From positions 1-57,585 of the forward strand of contig JADQBG010000018.1 of assembly GCA_016278725.1 (NCBI GenBank): a stretch of DNA of 57,585 nucleotides. The letters are read 5' to 3'. The notes beneath the pieces are model-generated. The model searched no databases, was not told where the DNA came from, and worked only from the letters and a program-made list of their open reading frames with translations. The position numbers and the translations under genes were made by a program. This DNA is from Actinomycetota bacterium. Lineage in GTDB: Bacteria; Actinomycetota; Thermoleophilia; RBG-16-64-13. Shown here one piece after another: positions 3,414-18,813 of the stretch (position 1 is the first letter of the stretch; the number at the start of each line of letters is the position of its first letter).

Positions 3414-4124
3414 GTGACTGAGCAAGAGCACGAGCCGCGTCTGCCCGCCGAACCGGACCAACTACCCGACGATCCCGAGAGTGACCCCGAGCGACTAGCC
3501 CGCAAGAAGCGCGGCGAGAAGTTGTCGCGGTGGGCGCTCGCGATCGTGGTGGTCCTCTCGGTGATAACTCTGGCCGCCCGCACCTTCGACTCCGACGGCG
3601 GGGTTTTCGATTTCTCCGACGAGAAGGCCGAAAGAGCCGCGGCCGAAGCGGCCGAAGCGGCCGCCCTCAATCCCGTTCCCGAAAGCCTTGCCGGCCTTGC
3701 GCTGGTCGACGAGGTGACCGGTCCTCAGGCTCTGACCGAAGTGGAGCATCTTCACGGAAAGCCCCTGGGCGCCGGGCTGGATAGCGCCTGGATCGCCAGG
3801 TACGGCCAGCAAGGCGAAGCCACTCTCTGGATCTCGCGTTCGAACCGGGAAGAGGATGCCGTCGAGATGCTCGACCGGATGACGGTGCTGATCGCGGATG
3901 GCGGGACGCCGTTCACCGGGCTCGAGGACATCGGCGAGGACGCGGCTCCTGTCTATCAACTCGACGGCATGGGCCAGCGGCATTATTACTTCCGCTCTGG
4001 CACGGATCTCTACTGGTTGGCCGCTCCTCCGGCTCAGGCCGAGGCGGCTCTGCAGGAGCTTTTGACCTCTTCCGGGCAGGGCTCGACGGTTTCGAAATTA
4101 CCGCGGTTGGAGGAGGCGGCATGA
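3414..4124 (+). CDS. Single-span membrane protein, first gene of ccm operon
   Basis: A 236-residue protein I do not recognise. It has an acidic cytosolic N-terminus rich in Pro/Asp/Glu, a basic stretch, one hydrophobic segment (about 41-57), an Ala/Glu-rich linker and an extracytoplasmic domain of about 150 residues with alternating beta-like stretches. No cysteine is present, so it is unlikely to be the missing CcmH. The start is GTG 3414, with GGAAGG about 12 bp upstream. It overlaps the first ccmE by 4 bp and heads the operon behind the BlaI-type promoter, so a role in haem delivery or apocytochrome handling is suggested by position only. Confidence 0.7.
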   Translation: MTEQEHEPRLPAEPDQLPDDPESDPERLARKKRGEKLSRWALAIVVVLSVITLAARTFDSDGGVFDFSDEKAERAAAEAAEAAALNPVPESLAGLALVDEVTGPQALTEVEHLHGKPLGAGLDSAWIARYGQQGEATLWISRSNREEDAVEMLDRMTVLIADGGTPFTGLEDIGEDAAPVYQLDGMGQRHYYFRSGTDLYWLAAPPAQAEAALQELLTSSGQGSTVSKLPRLEEAA

Positions 4125-4612
4125 GCACGACCGGTGCCGAGCAAACCTGGCGCAAGGGCGAGGCTTCGGCCGAAGAGACCCAGGCTGGGGGGATGAGCCA
4201 TCGCCGTATGTGGTTGATAGGCGGCGCCGTCGCCGTTGTGGCTCTTTGGGCGGTGCTTTTCTTTGCGGTGGGTGGCGACTTCTACAAGACCGTGGAAGAG
4301 GCCAAGGCCGCGGGTGCGGGAGAGAACCTGCGCGTGGGAGGCCTGGTTTCCCCCGGATCCGTTCTGCAACAGGGCGAAGTGGTCACCTTCACTCTGGAGG
4401 GCGAGACCGGGGAGCTTCTGGACGTCCGCTACGTTGGGGTCTACCCCGAACGCTTGAAGGCGTACGAGCGCGTGGTGGCCACGGGTTCCCTGGGGGAAAG
4501 CAGTACCCTCGAAGCCAACCAGCTGTTGATACAATGCCCCGACAAACTCCTTCCCGAGAAGGTCGCGAACGGGATAGCCAAGGGAGCGGGACTAGAGAGG
4601 CTCCTCTATTGA
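4121..4612 (+). CDS. CcmE paralogue 1, haem-chaperone-like with CxxxL
   Basis: CcmE carries haem on the outer face of the membrane between CcmC and CcmF. This 163-residue copy has a membrane anchor (about 30-50), then the CcmE OB-fold signs: F-Y-K-T (54-57), R-V-G-G-L-V (71-76), V-x-F near 88-90 and Y-x-G-x-x-P-E near 104-110. The haem-binding position is Cys139 in Q-C-P-D-K-L, so the classical His is replaced by Cys and the usual partner Tyr of the C-x3-Y variant is Leu here. The gene is 42 bp before a second ccmE that keeps C-x3-Y. It may be a specialised or haem-binding-impaired partner. Its 30-residue N-terminal extension is unusual. Confidence 0.82.
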   Translation: MSTTGAEQTWRKGEASAEETQAGGMSHRRMWLIGGAVAVVALWAVLFFAVGGDFYKTVEEAKAAGAGENLRVGGLVSPGSVLQQGEVVTFTLEGETGELLDVRYVGVYPERLKAYERVVATGSLGESSTLEANQLLIQCPDKLLPEKVANGIAKGAGLERLLY

Positions 4613-4654
4613 TCGCGTATCGATTCATGCCGGCGGTAAACCAAGGAAGAGGGC

Positions 4655-5092
4655 ATGCACATGGGTAACAAACGCACGAAATTCGTGATCGGTGGGTTCG
4701 TCATCCTGGCCGCCATCGCCTCGTTGGGCTGGTACGCGATGTCTCAAAACGCGGTCTACTACTACGAGGTGGCCGAGGTCATGGACGGGGGCGCGGCGGA
4801 GAACGTCCGCGTTGCCGGCACTCTGGTCAACGGCACCGTCGAACAGGGCCAGGTGGGTGATCCGCTCAAATTCAAGATCCACGACAAGGGCGACGAGACC
4901 CAGGTCCTCTACGTGACCTACACGGGCGCGGTGCCCGACACCTTCAAAGACGAGCCCGATGTGGAAGTGGTCGTCGAGGGCGATTACTCCGGAAGCGGCA
5001 CCTTCGACGCCAACTTCCTGCTGGCCAAGTGCCCATCCAAGTATGAGGCAGCCGCCGAGAATGGCGAGCAGGCCCCCTCGGACAAGCAGTAG
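4655..5092 (+). CDS. ccmE: CcmE haem chaperone, CxxxY type
   Basis: A 145-residue haem chaperone with one N-terminal membrane segment (about 9-28) and an OB-fold domain: Y-Y-E-V-A-E-V (36-42), V-R-V-A-G-T-L-V (51-58), Y-T-G-A-V-P-D (89-95) and L-L-A-K-C-P-S-K-Y (122-130). Cys126 and Tyr130 form the C-x3-Y motif known from Desulfovibrio and archaea, where it replaces H-x3-Y and goes with loss of CcmH; no ccmH is seen here. Start ATG 4655 follows AAGGAAG; ATG 4661 is an alternative. The tail after Tyr130 is short and acidic. It is second in a tandem pair and 28 bp before ccmF. Confidence 0.9.
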   Translation: MHMGNKRTKFVIGGFVILAAIASLGWYAMSQNAVYYYEVAEVMDGGAAENVRVAGTLVNGTVEQGQVGDPLKFKIHDKGDETQVLYVTYTGAVPDTFKDEPDVEVVVEGDYSGSGTFDANFLLAKCPSKYEAAAENGEQAPSDKQ

Positions 5093-5120
5093 ACAAGAGC
5101 GGTAGGGAGGATCTAGCTTT

Positions 5121-7127
5121 ATGAATCAAGTCGGTTACACGGCCCTTCTGCTCGCGGTCATGCTGGCCGCTTATGGCGCCGTGATGCCCGTGGTCGGCGC
5201 GCGCCTGGGCCGGCGGGACCTGATCCAGAGCGGGCTGCACTCGGCCTATGCGCTCTCCGCCGTGGTCGGGGTGGCGGCGGTAGTCCTTTGGATCGCCTTG
5301 GTTACCCGGGATTACTCGAATTACTACGTTTGGCAGTACACGTCGAACGACCTCGGCGCCTTCTACACCTTCTCGGCATTCTGGGCCGGTAACGCAGGCT
5401 CGATGTTGCTGTGGCTGCTGTTGCTCAGCCTGTTCTCGGCCACGGTCGTCTACCAGAACCGCGTGAAGAACCGAGAACTGGTCCCGTACGTGGTCTCCAT
5501 CCTAATGGTGATCTCGCTCTTCTTCGGTCTGCTGCTGGTCGCCTTCGAGGGCTCGAATCCCTTCGAGGCCAACCCGATGGGCTCGCCGGCGCAGGGCAAC
5601 GGCCTCAATCCCATGCTGGAGAATCCGGGGATGGTGATCCATCCGGTCGCCACCTATCTTGGCTACGTCGGGTTCGCCGTGCCTTTCGCCTTTGCCATGG
5701 CAGCTCTGATCACCAAGCGGCTGGGGGACTTCTGGATCCGTTCCACCCGGCGCTGGACCCTCGCGGGCTGGTTCTTTCTCACGATCGGCAACCTGGTCGG
5801 GGCCTGGTGGGCTTATGTCACTCTCGGTTGGGGCGGCTTCTGGGCCTGGGACCCCGTCGAGAACGCCTCGTTCATGCCCTGGCTCACCGGTACCGCCTTC
5901 CTGCACTCGGTGATGATCCAGGAGAAGAAGGACATGCTGAAGGTGTGGAACATCGTCCTGATCATCATGACCTTCACGCTCACCATCTTCGGCACCTTCC
6001 TGACCCGCTCGGGGATCATCAATTCGGTGCACTCCTTCGGGCAGGCCAGCGTGGGTCCCTACTTCATCGGCTTCATGGCGCTGACCCTGGTCTTCAGCCT
6101 CAACCTGCTCTTCAGCCGGCTCGACCTGCTTAAGTCGCGTAACGAGTTGGATAGCCTGCTGTCGCGGGAGTCCAGCTTCCTGATGAACAACCTGCTGCTC
6201 GTGGGCATGGCCGGAACCGTCCTCTGGGGGGTGCTGTGGCCGATCCTCAGCGAGGCCATCACCGGTGACAAGCAGACCGTGGGTCCGCCCTTCTTCGATA
6301 CGGTCATCCGCCCGATCGGCCTGGTGTTCATGTTCCTCACGGGGGTCTGCCCGCTGATCGCCTGGCGCCGAGCGACCTTCGCCAACCTGCGTAAGAACTT
6401 CATGTATCCCGCCGGTTTCTCGCTGGTGGTGCTTGCTGCCCTCCTGGTTTTCGGGATGACTCACGTCTGGGCTTTGATTGCCTTTACCCTTTCGGCCTTC
6501 GTGCTGGCCTCGATCTTCATGGAGTTCGCCCGAGGAACCCTGGTGCGGCGGGAGATGTCCGGGGAGAATCTCTTCCGGGCGCTGGCCACGCTTACCTGGC
6601 GCAACAAGAGGCGTTACGGCGGCTACATCGTGCACACCGGCGTCATCCTCTTCCTGATTGGGGTCACCGGCCACTACTCCTTCCAGGAGAAGGCGCAGAA
6701 CGTGCAGTTGGCCAAAGGTGAGTCGGTTACCGTCGGTGACTACACCGTCACCTACGAGGAGTTCTCCAGCTTCAACACCGACGAGAAATCCGTGGGCCAA
6801 GCGATCTTCCGCCTCGAGGAGAACGGTAAGTTCCTGGGCACGGCGGAGCCGGTGCGGGAGTTCTACTTTGCCAAGGAACAGCCCTGGACCCGGGTCGACC
6901 GGCACAGCACCCTGCTGCGCGACGTGTACGTCTCTCTGATGGAGTACGAGGCTCCCGACGGAGGCACCATCACCGTCGACATCAACATCAACCCGCTGAC
7001 CAGCTGGCTCTGGATAGGCGGCGTGGTGGCGACCCTCGGCGGACTCATCGCGCTGTGGCCCGACCGGCGGGAGGAGCGGCGGCTGGCCGCCCGCTACGAG
7101 CGGCAGGCGCGCCTGCACGAGGTATAG
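5121..7127 (+). CDS. ccmF: Cytochrome c haem lyase subunit CcmF
   Basis: CcmF takes haem from holo-CcmE and attaches it to apocytochrome c. The 668-residue polytopic protein has the tryptophan-rich WWD haem-handling domain at about 237-255 (W-G-G-F-W-A-W-D-P-V-E-N), conserved His residues flanking it (for example H174 and H263), a downstream periplasmic-type domain (about 530-620) and a last transmembrane segment near 626-646. Length matches the family. In the E. coli system CcmF works with CcmH; with Cys-type CcmE the complex is thought to work without it. Start ATG 5121, 28 bp after ccmE; GGGAGG lies somewhat far upstream. Confidence 0.97.
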   Translation: MNQVGYTALLLAVMLAAYGAVMPVVGARLGRRDLIQSGLHSAYALSAVVGVAAVVLWIALVTRDYSNYYVWQYTSNDLGAFYTFSAFWAGNAGSMLLWLLLLSLFSATVVYQNRVKNRELVPYVVSILMVISLFFGLLLVAFEGSNPFEANPMGSPAQGNGLNPMLENPGMVIHPVATYLGYVGFAVPFAFAMAALITKRLGDFWIRSTRRWTLAGWFFLTIGNLVGAWWAYVTLGWGGFWAWDPVENASFMPWLTGTAFLHSVMIQEKKDMLKVWNIVLIIMTFTLTIFGTFLTRSGIINSVHSFGQASVGPYFIGFMALTLVFSLNLLFSRLDLLKSRNELDSLLSRESSFLMNNLLLVGMAGTVLWGVLWPILSEAITGDKQTVGPPFFDTVIRPIGLVFMFLTGVCPLIAWRRATFANLRKNFMYPAGFSLVVLAALLVFGMTHVWALIAFTLSAFVLASIFMEFARGTLVRREMSGENLFRALATLTWRNKRRYGGYIVHTGVILFLIGVTGHYSFQEKAQNVQLAKGESVTVGDYTVTYEEFSSFNTDEKSVGQAIFRLEENGKFLGTAEPVREFYFAKEQPWTRVDRHSTLLRDVYVSLMEYEAPDGGTITVDININPLTSWLWIGGVVATLGGLIALWPDRREERRLAARYERQARLHEV

Positions 7128-7200
7128 GCGTCGTGATTCGGCGCCGCCTGGACGACGAGCTCGACAAGTTCGGCTAGGCCCAGAGAGCGAGAAGGAGATC

Positions 7201-7776
7201 ATGGCTGCATTGGAATTACTGATCAAGATCGTTTTGGCCCTGGCCGTGGTGGCCTACGTCGGCCTTCCCCTCCTCAAGACTCAGTTCGAGGATGAAGAGG
7301 GGGTCATGTCCGAGGAGGCCGAGGACCTCTACCGGCGCAAGGAGTCGACCTACTCGGCGATCAAAGAGCTCGAATTCGACTACAAGACCGGCAAGCTCTC
7401 GGACCAGGACTACGCCGAACTGGACGCCAAGTACCGGGCCGATGCCATCGAGGTTCTGGAGACCATCGACCTGATGGAGCGCGGGGTGACCGAGCCGGCA
7501 AAGGCTCCCGCCGGAGAAGCCCCCAAGAAACGAGGCAAGGGTCTCAAGCCGCGCCCCGCCGCCGCCCTCGAGCGCTTCGTGTGCGTGGAGTGCGAACAGG
7601 AAAATCCACAGGGTGCTCAGTTCTGCGGAGGGTGTGGCTCCGAACTCGGCGCCGAGATCATGGTGAAATCAGGGAACGGGTCCCAGGCGCCCGGCTCCGA
7701 GTGCGCCGATTGCGGAAAGCCGGTCAAGGGTGACCATAAATTTTGTGCCTCGTGCGGGGCGGAGGTCCGTGTCTAG
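7201..7776 (+). CDS. CcmI-like protein with two C-terminal zinc ribbons
   Basis: A 191-residue protein. The N-terminus has one hydrophobic segment (about 5-25). A stretch at about 50-85 (Y-S-A-I-K-E-L-E-F-D-Y...K-L-S-D-Q-D-Y) is the CcmI/CycH-type signature seen in proteins lying after CcmF. A basic Pro/Ala linker follows, then two zinc ribbons, C-V-E-C...C-G-G-C-G (about 126-146) and C-A-D-C-G...C-A-S-C-G (about 165-188). Classical CcmI instead has periplasmic TPRs for apocytochrome binding; here the C-terminus is likely cytosolic. It ends inside the start of ccmA, so translation is coupled. Confidence 0.8.
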   Translation: MAALELLIKIVLALAVVAYVGLPLLKTQFEDEEGVMSEEAEDLYRRKESTYSAIKELEFDYKTGKLSDQDYAELDAKYRADAIEVLETIDLMERGVTEPAKAPAGEAPKKRGKGLKPRPAAALERFVCVECEQENPQGAQFCGGCGSELGAEIMVKSGNGSQAPGSECADCGKPVKGDHKFCASCGAEVRV

Positions 7777-8587
7777 CTCGGTCGTTCGGCCCACCGATTT
7801 GCCTCCCGCCGACGCATCCGCCGCTGGGCGAGAAGACGATCCCGAAAACTCGCGAACGGCCTCGACGGCGGCCATGCGGGTACGGCGTCTGTGGAAGTAC
7901 TATGGTCACTTCCCCGCCCTGCGCGGCCTGGACCTCGAACTGGAGAGAGGCCGCTTTCTCACGGTCTTTGGGCCCAACGGGGCGGGCAAGACCACGCTGA
8001 TCAAGGTGCTTTCCACCCAGATCAAGCCGTCTGAGGGGCTGGTGGAGGTGGGCGGGCACGACGTGATCGGTGCCGCCGACCGGGTGCGCAGCCAGATCGG
8101 GGTCATCTCGCACAACACCTACCTCTATCCCAGCCTGACCGCCTTCGAGAATCTCAAGTTCTACGGGCGGATGTACGGAGTGGGCGACCTGGAAGAGCGC
8201 TCGCGGGAGCTGCTCGAGAGGGTCGGCCTGCGGGGCCGCGAGGATGACCGGGTTTCCGAGTACTCCCGCGGCATGCAGCAGCGGCTATCGATCGCGCGCG
8301 CCCTCTTGCACGAGCCCGAGATCATGTTCCTGGACGAGCCCTACACCGGCCTGGACCAGCACGCCTCGCGCATGCTCCGCGGGGTCCTCGCCACGTTGCA
8401 CGACGGCCGCCGGACCATCTTCATGGTCACGCACAATCTGGAGGAAGGCCTGGAGATGTGCGACGAGGTGGCCATCCAGGTCGCGGGGCGCATTTGTTAC
8501 CGGGAGCCCATCGACCGCGTCGATCGCGAACACTTTGGCGACACGTACTTCGAGTGCGTGGGCGGCGGGCACAAATGGGATTCCTAG
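7769..8587 (+). CDS. ccmA: Haem exporter ATPase CcmA
   Basis: ATPase of the CcmABC(D) complex; ATP hydrolysis releases holo-CcmE from CcmC. Walker A is G-P-N-G-A-G-K-T-T, the ABC signature is S-R-G-M-Q-Q-R-L-S and Walker B is I-M-F-L-D-E-P, followed by the switch H in M-V-T-H-N. I use GTG 7769, which follows GGAGG and overlaps the previous stop; the first 35 residues are low-complexity, so ATG 7874 (M-R-V-R-R-L-W) is a plausible shorter start. The reading frame overlaps ccmB by 13 bp. The protein ends with a short C-H/W tail after the usual domain. Confidence 0.92.
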   Translation: MSSSVVRPTDLPPADASAAGREDDPENSRTASTAAMRVRRLWKYYGHFPALRGLDLELERGRFLTVFGPNGAGKTTLIKVLSTQIKPSEGLVEVGGHDVIGAADRVRSQIGVISHNTYLYPSLTAFENLKFYGRMYGVGDLEERSRELLERVGLRGREDDRVSEYSRGMQQRLSIARALLHEPEIMFLDEPYTGLDQHASRMLRGVLATLHDGRRTIFMVTHNLEEGLEMCDEVAIQVAGRICYREPIDRVDREHFGDTYFECVGGGHKWDS

Positions 8588-9252
8588 GCCAGGCCTGGAC
8601 CATCGCCTGGAAGGACATCCTGGGCGAACTGCGCACCCGGGAGATGGTCTTCTCCATGCTGCTCTTCGGATTCCTGGTGATCCTCATCTTCAACTTCGGC
8701 ATCGAACCGGGCCTTCGCGACGAGGCTCTGGTCAAGCCGGGCGTGCTCTGGGCGGCCTTTGTGTTTGCCGGGATTCTCGGCCTCAACCGCTCATTCAGCT
8801 CCGAGAAGGAGAACGACTGCCTGCAGGGCCTGTTGCTCTGTCCCGTCGACCGGGCCGTGATCTATCTGGGTAAGTTTCTCGGTAACTTCGTCTTCGTGCT
8901 GGCGATGTCGCTCGCGGTGTTGCTCTTCTTCAGCGTGCTCTACAATGTCGATGTGATCGCGGTGCTGCCGGGACTGCTCGTCATCCTGGGGCTCGCGACC
9001 GTTGGGTTCAGCGCGGTGGGCACGCTCTTTTCGGCGGTGTCGGTGGGCATCAAGACCCGTGACGTTCTCTTGGCCATCCTGCTGTTCCCCGTGCTGGTGC
9101 CGGTGATTTTGGCGGCGGCCAAATCCTCGGCCTTCGTAATGAACGGCGAAGGCCTGTTCGCGGGAGGGAGTTGGCTGGCGATGCTGGTAGTCTATGACGT
9201 CGTATTCTTGGCCGTCTCGGTCATGGTTTTCGATTACGTCCTCGAGGAGTAG
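8575..9252 (+). CDS. ccmB: Haem exporter permease CcmB
   Basis: A 225-residue membrane protein with six predicted spans, the membrane partner of CcmA. The N-terminus (W-K-D-I-L-G-E-L-R-T-R-E) and the stretch S-S-E-K-E-N-D-C-L-Q-G-L-L-L are typical CcmB features. The ATG at 8575 lies inside the end of ccmA, indicating tight translational coupling; longer upstream frames are only the shadow of ccmA. It works with CcmA, CcmC and CcmD in the cytoplasmic membrane. Confidence 0.93.
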   Translation: MGFLGQAWTIAWKDILGELRTREMVFSMLLFGFLVILIFNFGIEPGLRDEALVKPGVLWAAFVFAGILGLNRSFSSEKENDCLQGLLLCPVDRAVIYLGKFLGNFVFVLAMSLAVLLFFSVLYNVDVIAVLPGLLVILGLATVGFSAVGTLFSAVSVGIKTRDVLLAILLFPVLVPVILAAAKSSAFVMNGEGLFAGGSWLAMLVVYDVVFLAVSVMVFDYVLEE

Positions 9253-9260
9253 GGGCGCCA

Positions 9261-10022
9261 ATGGCTGAAGAACAAACTCTAAAGCGGGCCTTCGCGGAAG
9301 CGCCGCCGGCAGTTCTCGAGCGGCGCGGAGGCCGCGGAGGAGACCGGTCCCTCTGGGTGGACGTGCTGGGCGCGAGCAGTGTTCTCGCGATCCTCTTTGC
9401 GCTGTACCTCGCCCTCATTTGGGCGCCGACCGAAGCGGTCATGGGGGACATCCAGCGTCTCTTCTACTTTCACGTGGCCGCCGCCTGGCTGGCGCTGGGC
9501 CCCTCCTTTGGGGTGGTGGCTGCCTGCAGCGCTCTCTACCTGTGGAAGAAGGACCTGCGCTTCGACCGCATCGCCTCGGCTTCTGCGGAACTCGGGGTGA
9601 TGTTCACCACGATCACACTGGTCACCGGCCCCATCTGGGCACGGCCCATCTGGGGCGCTTACTGGACCTGGGATCCGCGGCTGACCACGACGCTCGTGCT
9701 CTGGTTCATCTTCGTGGCCTACCTGATGCTGCGGTCGGCCGTCGACGCGGGACATAAACGTGCCCGCCTTTCGGCCGTCTTCGGCATAGTGGGCTGGATC
9801 GACGTACCCATCGTATTCATGTCCATCCGCTGGTGGCGCACCATTCATCCCACCGTGATTGCCTCGGAGGGTGGTGGCCTCGCTCCCGATATGAGGCTGG
9901 CCCTGTTCGTGGCCATAGGCGCCTTTACTCTGCTCTACGCCTATCTGCTGGTGGTGCGTGTCCGGCAGGAAGATCTGGCCACCCGCTTGGATCGAGTCCG
10001 CCACCAACTCTACCTTCGTTAG
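9261..10022 (+). CDS. ccmC: Haem transporter CcmC
   Basis: CcmC loads haem onto CcmE. The 253-residue protein has six membrane spans and the WWD motif W-G-A-Y-W-T-W-D-P-R (about 133-142), with flanking histidines (H71 in F-Y-F-H-V and H193 in T-I-H-P-T) that ligate haem in the family. The N-terminal 35 residues are hydrophilic and longer than usual. It lies 8 bp after ccmB and 9 bp before ccmD. Confidence 0.95.
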   Translation: MAEEQTLKRAFAEAPPAVLERRGGRGGDRSLWVDVLGASSVLAILFALYLALIWAPTEAVMGDIQRLFYFHVAAAWLALGPSFGVVAACSALYLWKKDLRFDRIASASAELGVMFTTITLVTGPIWARPIWGAYWTWDPRLTTTLVLWFIFVAYLMLRSAVDAGHKRARLSAVFGIVGWIDVPIVFMSIRWWRTIHPTVIASEGGGLAPDMRLALFVAIGAFTLLYAYLLVVRVRQEDLATRLDRVRHQLYLR

Positions 10023-10362: not shown

Positions 10363-10390
10363 TTGCGGCCAGTACTACAGTTGATAGTAT
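10363..10390 (+). promoter_or_regulatory. blaI promoter with BlaI-type operator
   Basis: TTGCGG (10363-10368) and TAGTAT (10385-10390) are 16 bp apart. The dyad TACTAC-AGTTG-ATAGTA (10373-10389) carries one mismatch to TACTAC-N5-GTAGTA and overlaps the -10 box. This would give autorepression of blaI and the co-transcribed protease, as is usual for BlaI/BlaR pairs. Confidence 0.62.
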
Positions 10391-10416
10391 GGCCAGGGCC
10401 AACAAGGAGGAACGGG

Positions 10417-10848
10417 ATGGAGTCGCCCTTCAGCCTTAACCCCGCCAATCAGGGGTTGAAGCAGGTCCTGGGGGACCTGGAGGCGGAGATCATGGAGTGC
10501 ATGTGGGACCTCGACAAGGCCTCCGTGCGCGAGATGCACGAGTGCCTGCTCGAGCGCCGCGACATCGCCTACACGACGGTGATGACGGTGATGAGCCGCC
10601 TGGCCGAGAAGCACCTGCTCGAACGGCGGCAGGAGGGGCGCGCGTATATCTACTCGCCGGTGAAGACCCGCGATCACTTCTGCAAGGACATTCTCAGCTC
10701 GGTGATGACCGGTCTGTTTGGCGGGATCGACAAGCCGGTGCTCACCCACTTCGTCGAGAGCCTCTCCACGGATGACGAGGCCGAACTCGACGCCCTTGCC
10801 GAAATCATCGAGCGTAAGCGGCAGGAGCGAGGGACATCGACAGCCTGA
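10417..10848 (+). CDS. blaI: BlaI/MecI/CopY-family transcriptional repressor
   Basis: A 143-residue winged-helix repressor: helix-turn-helix at about 8-75 (L-G-D-L-E-A-E-I-M...A-Y-T-T-V-M-T-V-M-S-R-L...G-R-A-Y-I-Y-S-P-V), followed by a helical dimerisation region. Family members dimerise on TACTAC/GTAGTA-type dyads and are inactivated by proteolysis through a membrane M56 protease, which here is the next gene. The start is ATG 10417, preceded by AAGGAGG; a TTG upstream at 10363 would lie inside the promoter. Three candidate operators in the window suggest it controls the ccm operon, itself and the permease operon. The mycobacterial BlaI is also known to act outside beta-lactam resistance. Confidence 0.92.
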   Translation: MESPFSLNPANQGLKQVLGDLEAEIMECMWDLDKASVREMHECLLERRDIAYTTVMTVMSRLAEKHLLERRQEGRAYIYSPVKTRDHFCKDILSSVMTGLFGGIDKPVLTHFVESLSTDDEAELDALAEIIERKRQERGTSTA

Positions 10849-10850
10849 CC

Positions 10851-11879
10851 TTGATACTCACCTTCGCGCTCCTGCTGGCCTCTCCCTGGCTGGTGTCGCG
10901 CTTCCTCGAGTCGCGGCTGGCTCCGCGCGCTCTGGTGTGGGCGTACTTCGCGAGCCTGCTGGCCGCCGGGACGGCAGCCCTTTTGATGTTGGTGGCGCTC
11001 ACGCTGCGTTCGCTACCTCACCGCTACCTGGAGATGGCCGGGCTCGAGTGCACCGACGCCGAGAACTGCGTGGGGGTGCTGCCGATGTGGGCGGATGCCA
11101 CCTTCTCCTTCCTTGTCGGGGGGGTGGTCCTTGGGCTGCTGGCCTTTGCCGCCTACGCTTTCTTCGCGCAACTGGGCGCCTCGCGCCGCTGTGCGGGCGA
11201 ACTGGACCTTTGCGCCCAGGGGGTTCTGCTACCACTGCCGATGCGGCCCAATGCCCGGCTGCTGGTGATCGAAGACCCCGTTCCGACCTCCTACACCATC
11301 GGTTTCCTGCGCCCCTGCATCGTGATATCGACGGGACTCTACGACGCCCTGGACGAGGACGAACTCGAAGCGGTGCTCGCCCACGAGGAGGCCCACGTCG
11401 GCGGGCGGGACAATCTGCTGACCCTGGCGGCCCAGACCTTCGCCATGACTTTCGCGCTTATCCCGGGGTTCCGCTTCGCCTACTCCCGTTTCCGGCGCGC
11501 ACAGGAACTGGCGGCAGATGACTTCGCTCACGCGCTGACGGGCGACCCGCTGGTCGTGGCCTCCAGCCTGGAAAAATTCGCACGCAGCGTGTTGGCACGG
11601 GGCCGCGGAGCCGTCGGCGGCACGCCCGCCCCCGGAGTTGGATTCGCCGACGAGGGCAATGTGGGGGAGCGCATCCGCGGCCTCCTGGAAGACCGGGTTT
11701 TCCCCTTCTCTCGGCAGACGCTGATTGCGACGCTCCTTGGCATCGTGTTCATTTTCGGCGTGTTTTCCTCATCGGCATTGTCGATGACCGACGTGGCCTT
11801 GCCCGGGCCGATGGGCTCACCCACGTGTCACGCGGTCACCGCCGCCGAACCGCACGGCCAGTACTGCACGGGGCATTAA
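10851..11879 (+). CDS. M56/M48-type membrane zinc metalloprotease (BlaR-like)
   Basis: A 342-residue membrane protease. Three hydrophobic segments (about 3-18, 28-52 and 85-107) precede a cytosolic gluzincin domain with H-E-E-A-H (178-182) and the third zinc ligand in Q-E-L-A-A-D-D (E220), then a last span (about 278-298) and a short outside tail with two cysteines. It lacks the large penicillin-binding sensor domain of BlaR1, so its signal is not a beta-lactam bound at a PBP domain. In the family the protease is the anti-repressor that cleaves BlaI. Start TTG 10851, two bases after the blaI stop, so the two are coupled. Confidence 0.88.
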   Translation: MILTFALLLASPWLVSRFLESRLAPRALVWAYFASLLAAGTAALLMLVALTLRSLPHRYLEMAGLECTDAENCVGVLPMWADATFSFLVGGVVLGLLAFAAYAFFAQLGASRRCAGELDLCAQGVLLPLPMRPNARLLVIEDPVPTSYTIGFLRPCIVISTGLYDALDEDELEAVLAHEEAHVGGRDNLLTLAAQTFAMTFALIPGFRFAYSRFRRAQELAADDFAHALTGDPLVVASSLEKFARSVLARGRGAVGGTPAPGVGFADEGNVGERIRGLLEDRVFPFSRQTLIATLLGIVFIFGVFSSSALSMTDVALPGPMGSPTCHAVTAAEPHGQYCTGH

Positions 11880-15203: not shown

Positions 15204-15237
15204 GGCGGCATCCGCGAGCGTCGCTAAGGAGCCGTGC

Positions 15238-15762
15238 ATGACCCGATCGAGGACCCTGCTGCCTATCATCTCGTTGTTGTTGGTGGCCGTTTTCTCCCTT
15301 GCCCTGGCCGGTTGTGGAGGCGACGATCCTTCAACCGGCGCGCAGAACCCGGACGCCACCGCCTCTGCGGCCGCCGGCGGCGCCAACCTCGTGCGCGAGG
15401 ATTTCTCGCTGGAGTCCTATCGCGGCAAGCCTCTGCTGCTCAACTTCTGGGCCTCCTGGTGACCGACCTGCGTGGAGGAATCTCCCGAACTCGATAGGTT
15501 CTATCGGGAAAGCTCGGAAGTAGCGAATCTTCTGGTGGTTGCGGTGCAGGACACGGAGGAGGACGTCACCAACTTCCTTCAGTCGAACGGCTATCAGTTC
15601 CCGGTGATGCTCGACCTCGATGGACAGTTGGCCAAGGAATATCGGATTCAAGGCGTGCCGACGCTGGTCGTAATCGACTCCCAGGGCGAGATCAGCCGCA
15701 CCCTGGTGGGAGTGAAGCCGACGGCTGAGGATCTGGTGACCTTGGCCAAGGAGGCCGGGTAG
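15238..15762 (+). CDS. TlpA-type thioredoxin lipoprotein with probable selenocysteine (UPTC)
   Basis: Extracytoplasmic thiol reductase of the TlpA/ResA/CcmG type, read as 174 residues through an in-frame TGA at 15460-15462. A lipoprotein signal ends L-A-L-A-G-C26. The thioredoxin fold begins at E-D-F-S-L-E-S-Y-R-G-K-P-L-L-L-N-F-W and the active site is W-A-S-W-U75-P-T-C78, with Sec exactly where the N-terminal catalytic Cys of C-P-x-C belongs. The frame continues without fault to cis-Pro G-V-P141-T and the end of the fold. TGA is an ordinary stop elsewhere in the window. A small hairpin follows at 15471-15487. Start ATG 15238 follows TAAGGAG. The next gene is ccdA, its likely electron donor. 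A TGC-to-TGA mutation or read error is the alternative. Confidence 0.8.
15471..15487 (+). promoter_or_regulatory. Candidate bacterial SECIS hairpin
   Basis: Eight bases after the in-frame TGA, the RNA can form CG-(U bulge)-GGAG-[GAAU]-CUCC-CG. A short stem with a bulged U at this distance resembles the minimal SelB-binding hairpin, although the apical loop has G-A rather than the G-U of E. coli fdhF. The stem is short and was folded by eye. Confidence 0.4.
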
Positions 15763-15767
15763 TTCAC

Positions 15768-16490
15768 TTGGGCGGCGTCGAGGAAGTCACGCTAACGGCT
15801 TTCCTCTTGGCGTTTGCGGCCGGCGCGGCCAGTTTTCTCAGTCCCTGCGTGCTGCCGCTCTTGCCCGGCTATCTGTCTTTCGTTTCCGGGGTTGGCCTGG
15901 ACGAGCTCCAGGCCGACACCCGCAGGGTGTTCCTGAGCACTTTGTCGTTCGTGCTGGGATTCTCTCTGGTCTTCACCTTGAGCGGTGCAGGAGCGGGCTT
16001 CATCGGGAGCCTGCTTCTGGCCAACCGGCGCTCCCTGACCATCGTCGGGGGTGTGCTCATGGTGTTGATGGGGCTGTACGTGGCCGGCGCGGGGGGCCGC
16101 TTCTTCCAACGCGAGCGCCGCCTGCTGCCCTTCAAGCCGCCCCAGGGAGTCCTCGGCGCCGGGGTCGTGGGGGTGGCCTTCGCCATCGGTTGGGTGCCCT
16201 GCGTGGGCCCGATTCTCGGCTCTATCCTAACCCTGGCCGCTTCAGGGCAAAATCCGGCCGGAGGCGCCCTCCTGCTCTTCGTCTATTCTCTGGGCATGGG
16301 GATCCCTTTCTTGCTCTCCGGCCTATTTCTAGCCCGCGCTCTCTCGGCGGTATCCTGGATCAAACGCCACTTCACCGCAGTCAAGTTGGTCTCCGGGGGT
16401 CTGCTGATCGGCTACGGCGTGCTCATGATCACAGGGGGCTTCACCGACCTGGCCCGTTTCTTGGCTCCGTACCAACTGTTCGAATTTTAG
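15768..16490 (+). CDS. ccdA: Thiol:disulfide interchange protein CcdA
   Basis: CcdA carries reducing equivalents from cytosolic thioredoxin across the membrane to extracytoplasmic TlpA/CcmG-type proteins. The 240-residue, six-span protein has both conserved cysteine sites, S-P-C-V-L-P (about 25-30) and G-W-V-P-C-V-G-P (about 142-149), one each in spans 1 and 4. TTG 15768 starts five bases after the TlpA stop, with AAGGAGG 13 bp upstream. With the Sec-type TlpA it forms a complete reductive relay that could serve cytochrome c maturation or the adjacent transporter. Confidence 0.93.
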   Translation: MGGVEEVTLTAFLLAFAAGAASFLSPCVLPLLPGYLSFVSGVGLDELQADTRRVFLSTLSFVLGFSLVFTLSGAGAGFIGSLLLANRRSLTIVGGVLMVLMGLYVAGAGGRFFQRERRLLPFKPPQGVLGAGVVGVAFAIGWVPCVGPILGSILTLAASGQNPAGGALLLFVYSLGMGIPFLLSGLFLARALSAVSWIKRHFTAVKLVSGGLLIGYGVLMITGGFTDLARFLAPYQLFEF

Positions 16491-16786: not shown

Positions 16787-17731
16787 ATGCCAGAAGAGCC
16801 GCTGACCCCGCAAAGCGAGGAGGCCGCGGCCGGCGCGAGCCTGCTGCCCGCATTCTTCTTCGACGAGGGTGAAGGATGGCGGGAGGCGCCGGAACCCCTG
16901 CCCGAGGAGGAACCCGTCACGCTCAACCTGAACGGACGTGAGTTGGTGACGATGCTGGCCAGCCCGGGAATGCGGCGGGAATTGGCCGTGGGTTTTCTCT
17001 ACGGCGAGGGGATCCTCGACAAGTTGGAGCAGCTCAAGTCGCTCGAGGAGGACGAGGCCGGCGTGCGCATCGAGGCCGAGGACGTCGATCTGGGCGCTCG
17101 GCTGTTCGAGAGGCGGATACTGGGCTCGGGCTGCGGCAAGGGAGTGACCTTTCTCTCGGGGCTGGACGCTTTCGCCGAATCGGGCCGGCCGCCGGTCGCC
17201 GAGCTTCCGCGATTTCCGGCCGCCACCATCTTTGCCGCGGCCGCTCAGGTCTACGGTGGAGGGCCGCTCTACCGGCGGACCCGGGGAACTCACGCGGCCG
17301 CGCTGTACACGGTGGGCGGGGAAGCCCTGGCCTTCGCGGAGGATATCGGGCGCCACAACGCCGTCGACAAGGTGGTGGGGAGCGCCCTCTTGGCGGGCCA
17401 AGCCTTGAGGGAGACCTTCCTCGTGGTCACCGGCCGCATCAGCTCGGAAATGGTTTCGAAGACGGCGAAGACGCCGATCCCGCTCATCGTTTCCAAGAGC
17501 GTGCCCACCGCGATGGCGGTGCGGCATGCGGAGCGGCTAAGGCTCGGAGTCGTGGGCCGGGTCCGCCGCGGATCGTTGGTGGCCTTTACCCTGCCCGAAC
17601 TGATTCAGCCGGCCCCATCGGAAGGCGCGGACGCGGAGGTCCCGGCCGCCCACGTCGGAGCCCTCGATCCCGCTTCAGCCGGCGCCGCGGACGCGGATGA
17701 CGACCGGCCCGGCCCCGCGAGGGACGCCTGA
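16787..17731 (+). CDS. fdhD: Formate dehydrogenase sulfur carrier FdhD
   Basis: FdhD passes sulfur from a cysteine desulfurase to the molybdenum/tungsten cofactor, which activates formate dehydrogenase. The 314-residue protein has family motifs V-G-F-L-Y-G-E-G-I (68-76), the loop cysteine in G-S-G-C116-G-K-G, R-G-T-H-A-A-A and E-D-I-G-R-H-N-A-V-D-K. In E. coli this loop has C-x2-C; here only one Cys is present, a common variant. ATG follows AAGGAGGA. The C-terminal 45 residues are Ala/Asp/Pro-rich and not part of the fold. It implies a formate dehydrogenase elsewhere, often itself a selenoprotein. Confidence 0.95.
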   Translation: MPEEPLTPQSEEAAAGASLLPAFFFDEGEGWREAPEPLPEEEPVTLNLNGRELVTMLASPGMRRELAVGFLYGEGILDKLEQLKSLEEDEAGVRIEAEDVDLGARLFERRILGSGCGKGVTFLSGLDAFAESGRPPVAELPRFPAATIFAAAAQVYGGGPLYRRTRGTHAAALYTVGGEALAFAEDIGRHNAVDKVVGSALLAGQALRETFLVVTGRISSEMVSKTAKTPIPLIVSKSVPTAMAVRHAERLRLGVVGRVRRGSLVAFTLPELIQPAPSEGADAEVPAAHVGALDPASAGAADADDDRPGPARDA

Positions 17732-17745
17732 GCCCGGAGCGGCAG

Positions 17746-18813
17746 ATGACCCGCGGCGACGGGCCGGTCCTCTGCCTGGACGTGGGCATGGGCACCAACG
17801 ACCTCCTGCTGTGGCAGCCGGAGGAGCGGGGAGAAAATCAAATCCACCTGGTGCTCCCCTCGACGACGCGCATTCTGGCCCGGGAGATCGGCGAGGCCAC
17901 CCGCCGCGGCCTGGGCCTGGTGCTCCGCGGGGAACTGATGGGCGGCGGTCCCAGCGCGAAGGCGGTGCGGCGGCACCTCGAGGCCGGCTTGGCGGTCCAT
18001 GCGGAGCCCCTCGCCGCACAGACTCTGGACGACGACCTCGAGGAAGTGCAGGCCCTGGGGGTGAGCTTGGTCGACGAGAGCGAGGCCGTCCGGCTGGTGA
18101 GACAAGGGCACGCCGAGGTCCGCATGGGCGACCTGCGCCTTCCGGAACTGCTGGACGGCCTCGAGAAGCTGGGGGCCCCTCGGCCGGAGGGGCTCGCCGT
18201 CGCCGTGCAGGACCACGGCCAGGCTCCCGCGGGAGTCAGCGACCGCGTCTTCCGCTTCCAGTTGTGGGCGAAGCTGCTCGAGCAGTCGCGGCGCCTGGTC
18301 GATCTCTTTTACCCGTCCGAAGAGGTGCCTCCCGAGCTCACCCGCATGCAGGCCGTGGTTCGGCTCGTGAATGGGCGGCTGCCCCTGGTGGTGGCGGACA
18401 CCGGCCCCCCGGCGCTCTGGGGCGCCCGCCTCGCGGCCGCGGCTCCGCGGGTCTTGGCGGTCAACTACGGCAACGGCCACACCTTGGCCTCTTTGGTAGA
18501 AGAGGGCGAGCTTTCCGGCCTTTTCGAGCATCACACCCGGAGGCTTTCTCCCCAGGGGATGGAGGCGTACCTGCGGCGCTTCGCCGCCGGTGAACTCCTC
18601 GGCCAGGACGTCTTCCGCGACGGCGGCCATGGTGCGCTACCCGTGGTCGCGCCTTTTGCCTTGGAGGAGGTCGCCCTCTCGGTGACGGGCCCAGGCCGGG
18701 CCCGCTTCCGGGAGCTGAGGCTGGAGCAGCACGAAGCCTCGATACACGGCGACATGATGATCACCGGTTGCTGGGGTCTCCTGGAAGGCTACAAAGCTCG
18801 GCTTCTCGTGTAG
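17746..18813 (+). CDS. DUF1786-family protein
   Basis: A 355-residue protein resembling DUF1786, a family found mainly in anaerobes and sometimes labelled as related to pyruvate formate-lyase activation without proof. The start L-C-L-D-V-G-M-G-T-N-D-L-L-L is a phosphate-binding-loop-like stretch as in ASKHA-fold proteins, and A-V-N-Y-G-N-G-H-T-L (about 245-254) and the I-T-G-C-W-G-L-L end are further conserved-looking blocks. There are no iron-sulfur motifs. It follows fdhD by 14 bp, so it may serve the same anaerobic C1 metabolism. Biochemical role unknown. Confidence 0.75.
   Translation: MTRGDGPVLCLDVGMGTNDLLLWQPEERGENQIHLVLPSTTRILAREIGEATRRGLGLVLRGELMGGGPSAKAVRRHLEAGLAVHAEPLAAQTLDDDLEEVQALGVSLVDESEAVRLVRQGHAEVRMGDLRLPELLDGLEKLGAPRPEGLAVAVQDHGQAPAGVSDRVFRFQLWAKLLEQSRRLVDLFYPSEEVPPELTRMQAVVRLVNGRLPLVVADTGPPALWGARLAAAAPRVLAVNYGNGHTLASLVEEGELSGLFEHHTRRLSPQGMEAYLRRFAAGELLGQDVFRDGGHGALPVVAPFALEEVALSVTGPGRARFRELRLEQHEASIHGDMMITGCWGLLEGYKARLLV

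Follow-up and report, generated by a model that had tools for sequence, protein, structure and literature searches.

A conserved in-frame UGA, predicted to encode selenocysteine, in the gene for a ResA-like lipoprotein thioredoxin of the actinomycetotal order RBG-16-64-13

The window analyzed here, the whole stretch of 57,585 nucleotides, is contig 11 of a 2.73-Mb genome that is 99.65% complete. It carries a thioredoxin-like gene whose reading frame is interrupted by a TGA codon, which raises the question of whether the gene has decayed or whether the codon directs the insertion of selenocysteine (Sec), and, in the latter case, how the codon would be recoded and what the protein would reduce. 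The gene and the codon are the following:

15238–15762, forward strand: gene for a TlpA/ResA-like lipoprotein thioredoxin, predicted to contain Sec (translation with TGA as U; Pfam Redoxin/AhpC-TSA; ResA nearest by sequence and by fold)
15460–15462, forward strand: UGA codon, predicted Sec, in place of the N-terminal Cys of the CxxC site (TGA in 16 of 16 homologues of the order; selA, selB, selC, and selD present)

Translation confirmed the preliminary description of this DNA, according to which the frame is interrupted only at this codon, the N-terminal catalytic position of the CxxC site, while the lipobox and the NFWASW, PTC, and GVPT motifs are intact. The single internal stop is the TGA at 15460–15462, in frame with an ATG at 15238 that follows a Shine-Dalgarno-like taaggag (15225–15231). 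With TGA read as U, the product has 174 residues, with Sec as U75, and the frame ends at a TAG (15760–15762). The active site reads NFWASW-U75-P-T-C78 (WASW-U-PTC), the GVPT motif contains Pro141, and an N-terminal hydrophobic stretch followed by the lipobox LAGC at residues 23–26, recognized by eye, is that of a bacterial lipoprotein. The lipobox Cys is aligned in 14 of the 16 sequences of the family, and position 75, C78, E81, and P141 are invariant; E81 occupies the position of Glu80 in ResA. Both Redoxin and AhpC-TSA scored over their Pfam cut-offs, the former (PF08534) with 81.9 bits against a gathering score of 26.6.

The conservation of the codon was examined in a sample of 18 genomes of the order and in a wider set of 61 genomes of relatives. 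Profile search of the 18 detected the gene in 16, which belong to ten genera (all genera of the order in which the gene was found), with no match in the remaining two, G009 and G010. Each of the 16 homologues contains a single in-frame TGA, always at this codon, after which come xxC and the rest of the frame, undamaged, the copy of G017 being cut off by the end of its contig; a Cys version (TGC or TGT at codon 75) was not found in the order by this search. Thus, the alignment of homologues proposed earlier gave TGA, not TGC, in the relatives. Outside the order, the 23 homologues read at site 75 have Cys, as is expected at the Sec position of a bacterial selenoprotein, and among the matches listed from beyond the order in a sample of the phylum, no stop was present except one TAG (G253) and one TGA (G271). 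A protein search of the contigs gave homologues of 28–44% identity, close records lying outside the scope of that search, which thus says little on the TGA. Compared with G001, the closest genome and one of the same genus, the window gene has, in the 99 codons after the TGA, 21 codons that differ synonymously and 5 that differ non-synonymously, and 8 and 0, respectively, in the 25 codons before it. Because these changes are mostly synonymous, the region past the TGA is under protein-level selection, and the comparison indicates purifying selection on both sides of the codon.

The machinery for Sec is complete in the same genome. The genes for SelB (C18:19606–21501; 344 bits, including the C-terminal domain) and SelA (C18:21560–22930; 556 bits) adjoin each other and are both over the curated cut-offs. 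The tRNA-Sec is at C14:2172–2264 (74.9 bits against a cut-off of 47), and ARAGORN also reported a tRNA-SeC with the anticodon tca. SelD, over its cut-off as well, has one in-frame TGA (C26:106754–107677, L193) at GSG-U-ACK, a recognized Sec site of this enzyme, and two formate dehydrogenase alpha subunits have TGA at the canonical (C/H)AR-x-U-H (C19:43428–45479, L189, and C6:50283–53192, L190). SelD and these two subunits are probable further selenoproteins of the genome. The suggestion that the nearby fdhD fits a Sec-using lineage was therefore borne out: selA, selB, selC, and selD were all found when searched for, as had been proposed, and since they are accompanied by TGA-containing genes for SelD and formate dehydrogenases, the lineage uses Sec. 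Among the carriers of the thioredoxin gene, selA is present in 14 of 16, the two without it being genomes of 64% and 76% completeness; as for the two non-carriers in the order, G009 has selA and G010 does not.

Three other readings of the codon have to be weighed against these data. A recent TGC-to-TGA nonsense mutation or a sequencing error, which the preliminary description held to be the main alternative, would make the locus a young pseudogene of an ordinary CxxC TlpA. One base change is indeed enough to give TGA from TGC, and homologues from outside the order have Cys as a rule, but the relatives already contradict it, as the same TGA is found in 16 genomes of ten genera, in frames free of frameshifts or decay on both sides and under purifying selection. 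We give this reading practically no credence, and the TGA, as judged from the alignments, can be taken as neither decay nor sequencing error. The UGA might also be read as another amino acid, following a reassignment to Trp or Gly, or be passed by unspecific read-through. The codon does stand within a normally translated frame, and nothing specific favors such decoding; TGA is a normal stop here, ending 9 of the 25 window genes chosen for codon counting, the position is that of the catalytic Cys of the fold, the sel machinery is complete, and in-frame TGA elsewhere falls on the canonical Sec positions of formate dehydrogenase and SelD, all of which makes it very improbable. Hardly more credible is the production of two proteins, a lipoprotein cut short after residue 74 and a fragment started internally at GTG 15472. 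ORF prediction does give a GTG-started frame at 15472–15762, but both halves would lack an active site and a complete fold, the codons on the two sides of the TGA are kept together as a single thioredoxin motif, and the columns of the GTG vary in the relatives, with no conservation of the start. Insertion of Sec at codon 75 is very probable, and that it is inserted into a ResA-like reductase can be stated with high confidence. Since standard gene callers split the gene or omit it, the only well-matched ResA-like reductase found in the genome would go unnoticed.

Recoding by SelB would be expected to involve an RNA structure downstream from the UGA, and two hairpins are conserved there:

15473–15486, forward strand: hairpin 1, a stem of variable sequence with a loop starting with GA (15478–15481), the loop lying 15 nt after the UGA (alignment columns 17–30)
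15490–15508, forward strand: hairpin 2, the proposed SelB-binding bSECIS, its loop lying 34 nt after the UGA (pairing, frozen codons, and published limits)

The 16 sequences, anchored at the UGA, could be aligned without gaps. In hairpin 1, 85% of the cells are paired, and three of the five pairs are changed on both sides. Hairpin 2 is the near-invariant CUCGAUA-GGUUC-UAUCGAG, common to all 16, with a 7-bp stem (UAUCGRG on the 3′ side) and the loop at 15497–15501; 99% of its cells are paired, and five of the seven pairs never vary. When the partners were slid against each other, pairing and covariation of the whole two-hairpin structure dropped sharply. Because hairpin 2 hardly varies, its pairing is not proven by covariation. 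Its codons (GAA CTC GAT AGG TTC TAT CGA) are identical in 94% of the comparisons in which the amino acid is the same, against 54% in hairpin 1 and 42% in the rest of the gene, which serves as the control, the 16 sequences being related and not independent samples. This is so even though three of these codons, AGG, CGA, and TAT, account for only 5.6%, 3.1%, and 16.7%, respectively, of the codons for their amino acids in the window genes. A covariance model of the hairpins matched exactly the 16 carriers among the 61 genomes, with 63–86 bits. One extra weak match in a carrier (G006 L146, E = 4e-4), at the end of a gene for an ABC transporter substrate-binding protein, was taken as chance. The Cys homologues of other groups have mostly one to four of the seven pairs of hairpin 2 (six in one case) and score at most 24 bits, a value reached because part of the signal of the model is shared coding sequence.

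The limits stated for bSECIS elements in PMC13188914 are a loop of 3–9 nt, an upper stem of 4–16 bp, a G in the first two loop positions, 16–37 nt from the UGA to the apical loop, and an energy at or below −7.5 kcal/mol. The loop of hairpin 2 is GGUUC or AGUUC (GGUAC in one genome), with an invariant second G, and in all 16 genomes the loop, the stem, and the G are within these limits, as is the spacing of 34 nt; at 15 nt, hairpin 1 is just outside. The energy of both hairpins together, −15.5 kcal/mol, is also within the limit, with no greater stability than that of shuffled sequence (z = −0.41). Since folding energy of a single sequence is not distinctive here, the argument for recoding rests on conservation. 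A stem with a bulged U, eight nt after the TGA, had been described before, with the proposal of a bSECIS folding search in this region. The stem does appear in the single-sequence fold, with U 15473 bulged, but it is not more stable than shuffled sequence and is only a part of the two-hairpin element; in most relatives the column of the bulged U holds a G able to pair with the partner C. It is hairpin 2, at 15490–15508 and absent from the earlier account, that agrees with the published model. As hairpin 2 is within the spacing limit and hairpin 1 just misses it, we infer that hairpin 2 is the SelB target and that hairpin 1 may be an accessory or spacer stem. Nothing meaningful was matched in Rfam around the site, either at the gathering cut-off or at E ≤ 10. 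A search of the genome for GATAGGTTCTATC, with one mismatch allowed, gave no site beyond the present one, which rules out hairpin 2 as a general SECIS of this genome. The frozen hairpin would be a ready probe for recognition by SelB outside the E. coli model.

The predicted structure of the window protein has a pLDDT of about 95 over the domain, with low values over the signal and the linker. With this model, Foldseek gave ResA as the best match (E from 4e-11 to 1e-10, rmsd about 1.5 Å), with CcmG somewhat lower, and the family profile also retrieved ResA structures first (4nmu, 2e-28); the model and the top match both indicate a thioredoxin fold with the cis-Pro. The nearest curated families are StoA and ResA, with scores below both family cut-offs. 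The ResA of Bacillus, a CcdA-dependent reductase of cytochrome c maturation, is alike in its fold (NF002854; PDB 1st9, 4nmu), in the Glu three residues after the second Cys, and in the cis-Pro loop (P141). It has C-E-P-C in place of U-P-T-C, where Sec takes the first Cys position, and at 82.9 bits against a cut-off of 170 the window protein resembles ResA and is not filed as ResA. CcmG/DsbE (TIGR00385; PDB 1kng, 2b1k) shares the fold and presumably the role in cytochrome c maturation, but it has Cys instead of Sec, the score is 56.5 bits against a cut-off of 123.15, and the window gene is outside the ccm operon, about 5 kb downstream. The ResA-like WAxxUGC protein (NF041054) has a similar domain, whose Sec is located at the equivalent tryptophan-alanine motif; its motif is U-G-C and its model has 354 positions, to which the window protein gave 41.6 bits against a cut-off of 300.

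Selenoproteins with UxxC of the thiol-disulfide isomerase-like or TlpA-like (cd02966) and Redoxin (PF08534) types have been catalogued (PMC1088965, PMC13188914). Compared by description only, these have the same thioredoxin fold with U first in UxxC, and the Sec ResA-like lipoprotein belongs to this known TlpA-like kind. What distinguishes it is its fixation among the carriers of the order, the frozen distal hairpin, and the linkage to CcdA, ccm, and lgt; in the catalogue descriptions the groups are named as families, with no mention of order-wide fixation, a two-hairpin element, or such a gene context.

The neighborhood of the gene includes:

4121–10022, forward strand: System I ccm genes, for two CcmE-domain proteins, CcmF, and CcmA-like, CcmB-like, and CcmC proteins (CcmE, CcmF_C, Cytochrom_C_asm, ccmC, and CcmA-like matches; CcmB-like by position and ORF only)
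15768–16490, forward strand: CcdA (DsbD transmembrane-domain protein), the likely electron donor (Pfam DsbD_TM, 65.5 bits)
16787–17731, forward strand: FdhD, formate dehydrogenase accessory sulfurtransferase, given as context outside the system (TIGR00129, 168.8 bits against a cut-off of 140.9)

CcdA begins just past the end of the thioredoxin gene and is directly downstream in 11 of the 13 genomes with enough flank, with the exception of G005 and G011, in which it does not adjoin. The System I ccm set is found a few kilobases upstream in the window and in G001, G004, G006, G012, and G013. The remaining genera with upstream flank (G002, G003, G005, G008, G011, G015, G016, and G017) have lgt as the neighbor, and in the window it is lgt that comes first in the ccm cluster. 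No CcmG or CcmH was recognized among the ccm genes at 4121–10022, and the single further match in a protein search of the genome (C24) is without CxxC, which leaves the window protein as the only one of TlpA/ResA type found with an active-site motif.

The surroundings hold further genes of some regularity. Two tandem CcmE-domain proteins (4121–4612 and 4655–5092) are encoded in one ccm cluster, likewise in G012. Between the ccm genes and those for the ABC transporter and the thioredoxin are genes for a putative BlaI/MecI-type regulator and a BlaR1-like M56 peptidase (10363–11879), names that come from our reading of the sequence; the order is the same in G001, G004, G006, and G013, and in G012 the ABC permeases are missing. 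A DUF1786 protein (17746–18813; 240.9 bits) adjoins fdhD and is kept near the thioredoxin gene in several genera.

In the mechanism that we propose, the UGA at 15460–15462 would be decoded as Sec by SelA, SelB, SelC, and SelD under the direction of the downstream hairpin element; the conservation of the element is seen in the alignment, and its action is deduced from it. The product would be a membrane-anchored, extracytoplasmic lipoprotein of ResA-like thioredoxin fold with Sec75-Pro-Thr-Cys78, most likely supplied with cytoplasmic electrons by the CcdA next to it. Its selenolate would attack disulfides of extracytoplasmic substrates and be released as an Se-S bond with Cys78, to be reduced again by CcdA. 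Because the ccm set is without a recognized CcmG and the protein search found the active-site motif in no second TlpA/ResA-type protein of the genome, apocytochrome c, with its CXXCH disulfide, appears as the likeliest client, an assignment that we make tentatively and regard as close to evenly balanced. Perhaps the CcdA-reduced, ResA-like selenothioredoxin is the missing CcmG. That it is a very fast reductase for apocytochrome or metal chemistry, as the preliminary description suggested, is a conjecture.

A different substrate for the same Sec protein, such as the disulfides of lipoproteins or cell-wall proteins, or the repair of peroxide or methionine-sulfoxide damage, as in Etrx/SdbA-like lipoproteins, is a possibility of real weight, if somewhat short of an even balance. 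About half of the genera have lgt instead of ccm beside the gene, the Etrx lipoproteins of pneumococcus come close in fold as well, and CcdA is able to feed several clients. On the other hand, lgt stands at the head of the window's ccm cluster, which otherwise has no CcmG, and ResA, the family closest to the protein, is a reductase of cytochrome c maturation. Because G005 and G011 do not have CcdA beside the gene, and only some genera have ccm there, the context does not fix a role in cytochrome c maturation. Going further with apocytochrome c as the client, one could imagine an unusual tandem in which the variable hairpin 1, stacking below, brings the near-invariant distal hairpin 2, at the outer limit of the permitted spacing, within reach of SelB. 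The RNA would in turn have constrained the peptide that follows the active site to ELDRFYR, and the protein would be an obligate Sec substitute for CcmG, of which the order retains no Cys version; as a whole, we consider this rather unlikely. The fixation of Sec across the order, with no Cys counterparts, makes this a clean case in which to ask why a disulfide reductase outside the cytoplasm should retain selenium.

Other genes with UxxC were noticed in the relatives. Thioredoxin-like genes of the class or phylum have TGA at the first CxxC position in L178 and L179 (G045, G060), L180 (G035), L181 (G022), L182 (G027), and L177 (G271), with the motifs WSSWUSTC, FFASWUGPC, FGSSWUASC, FYRDTUPFC, and FWESWUTVC, and they look like independent acquisitions of Sec or distinct families. 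The presence of several such genes in the same class suggests a selenoproteome larger than standard annotation would show. Also, a 544-aa gene with one in-frame TGA (L183 and L184, of G042 and G032, and likely also in G037, G047, G052, and G057) encodes an N-terminal ResA-like domain with FWKGQ-U-QGC, fused to an FAD oxidoreductase resembling sulfide:quinone reductase. This second part scored 251 bits with NF049943 (Sec type III SQR), below the cut-off of 525, and the fusion of a UxxC thioredoxin with an SQR-like part looks unusual.
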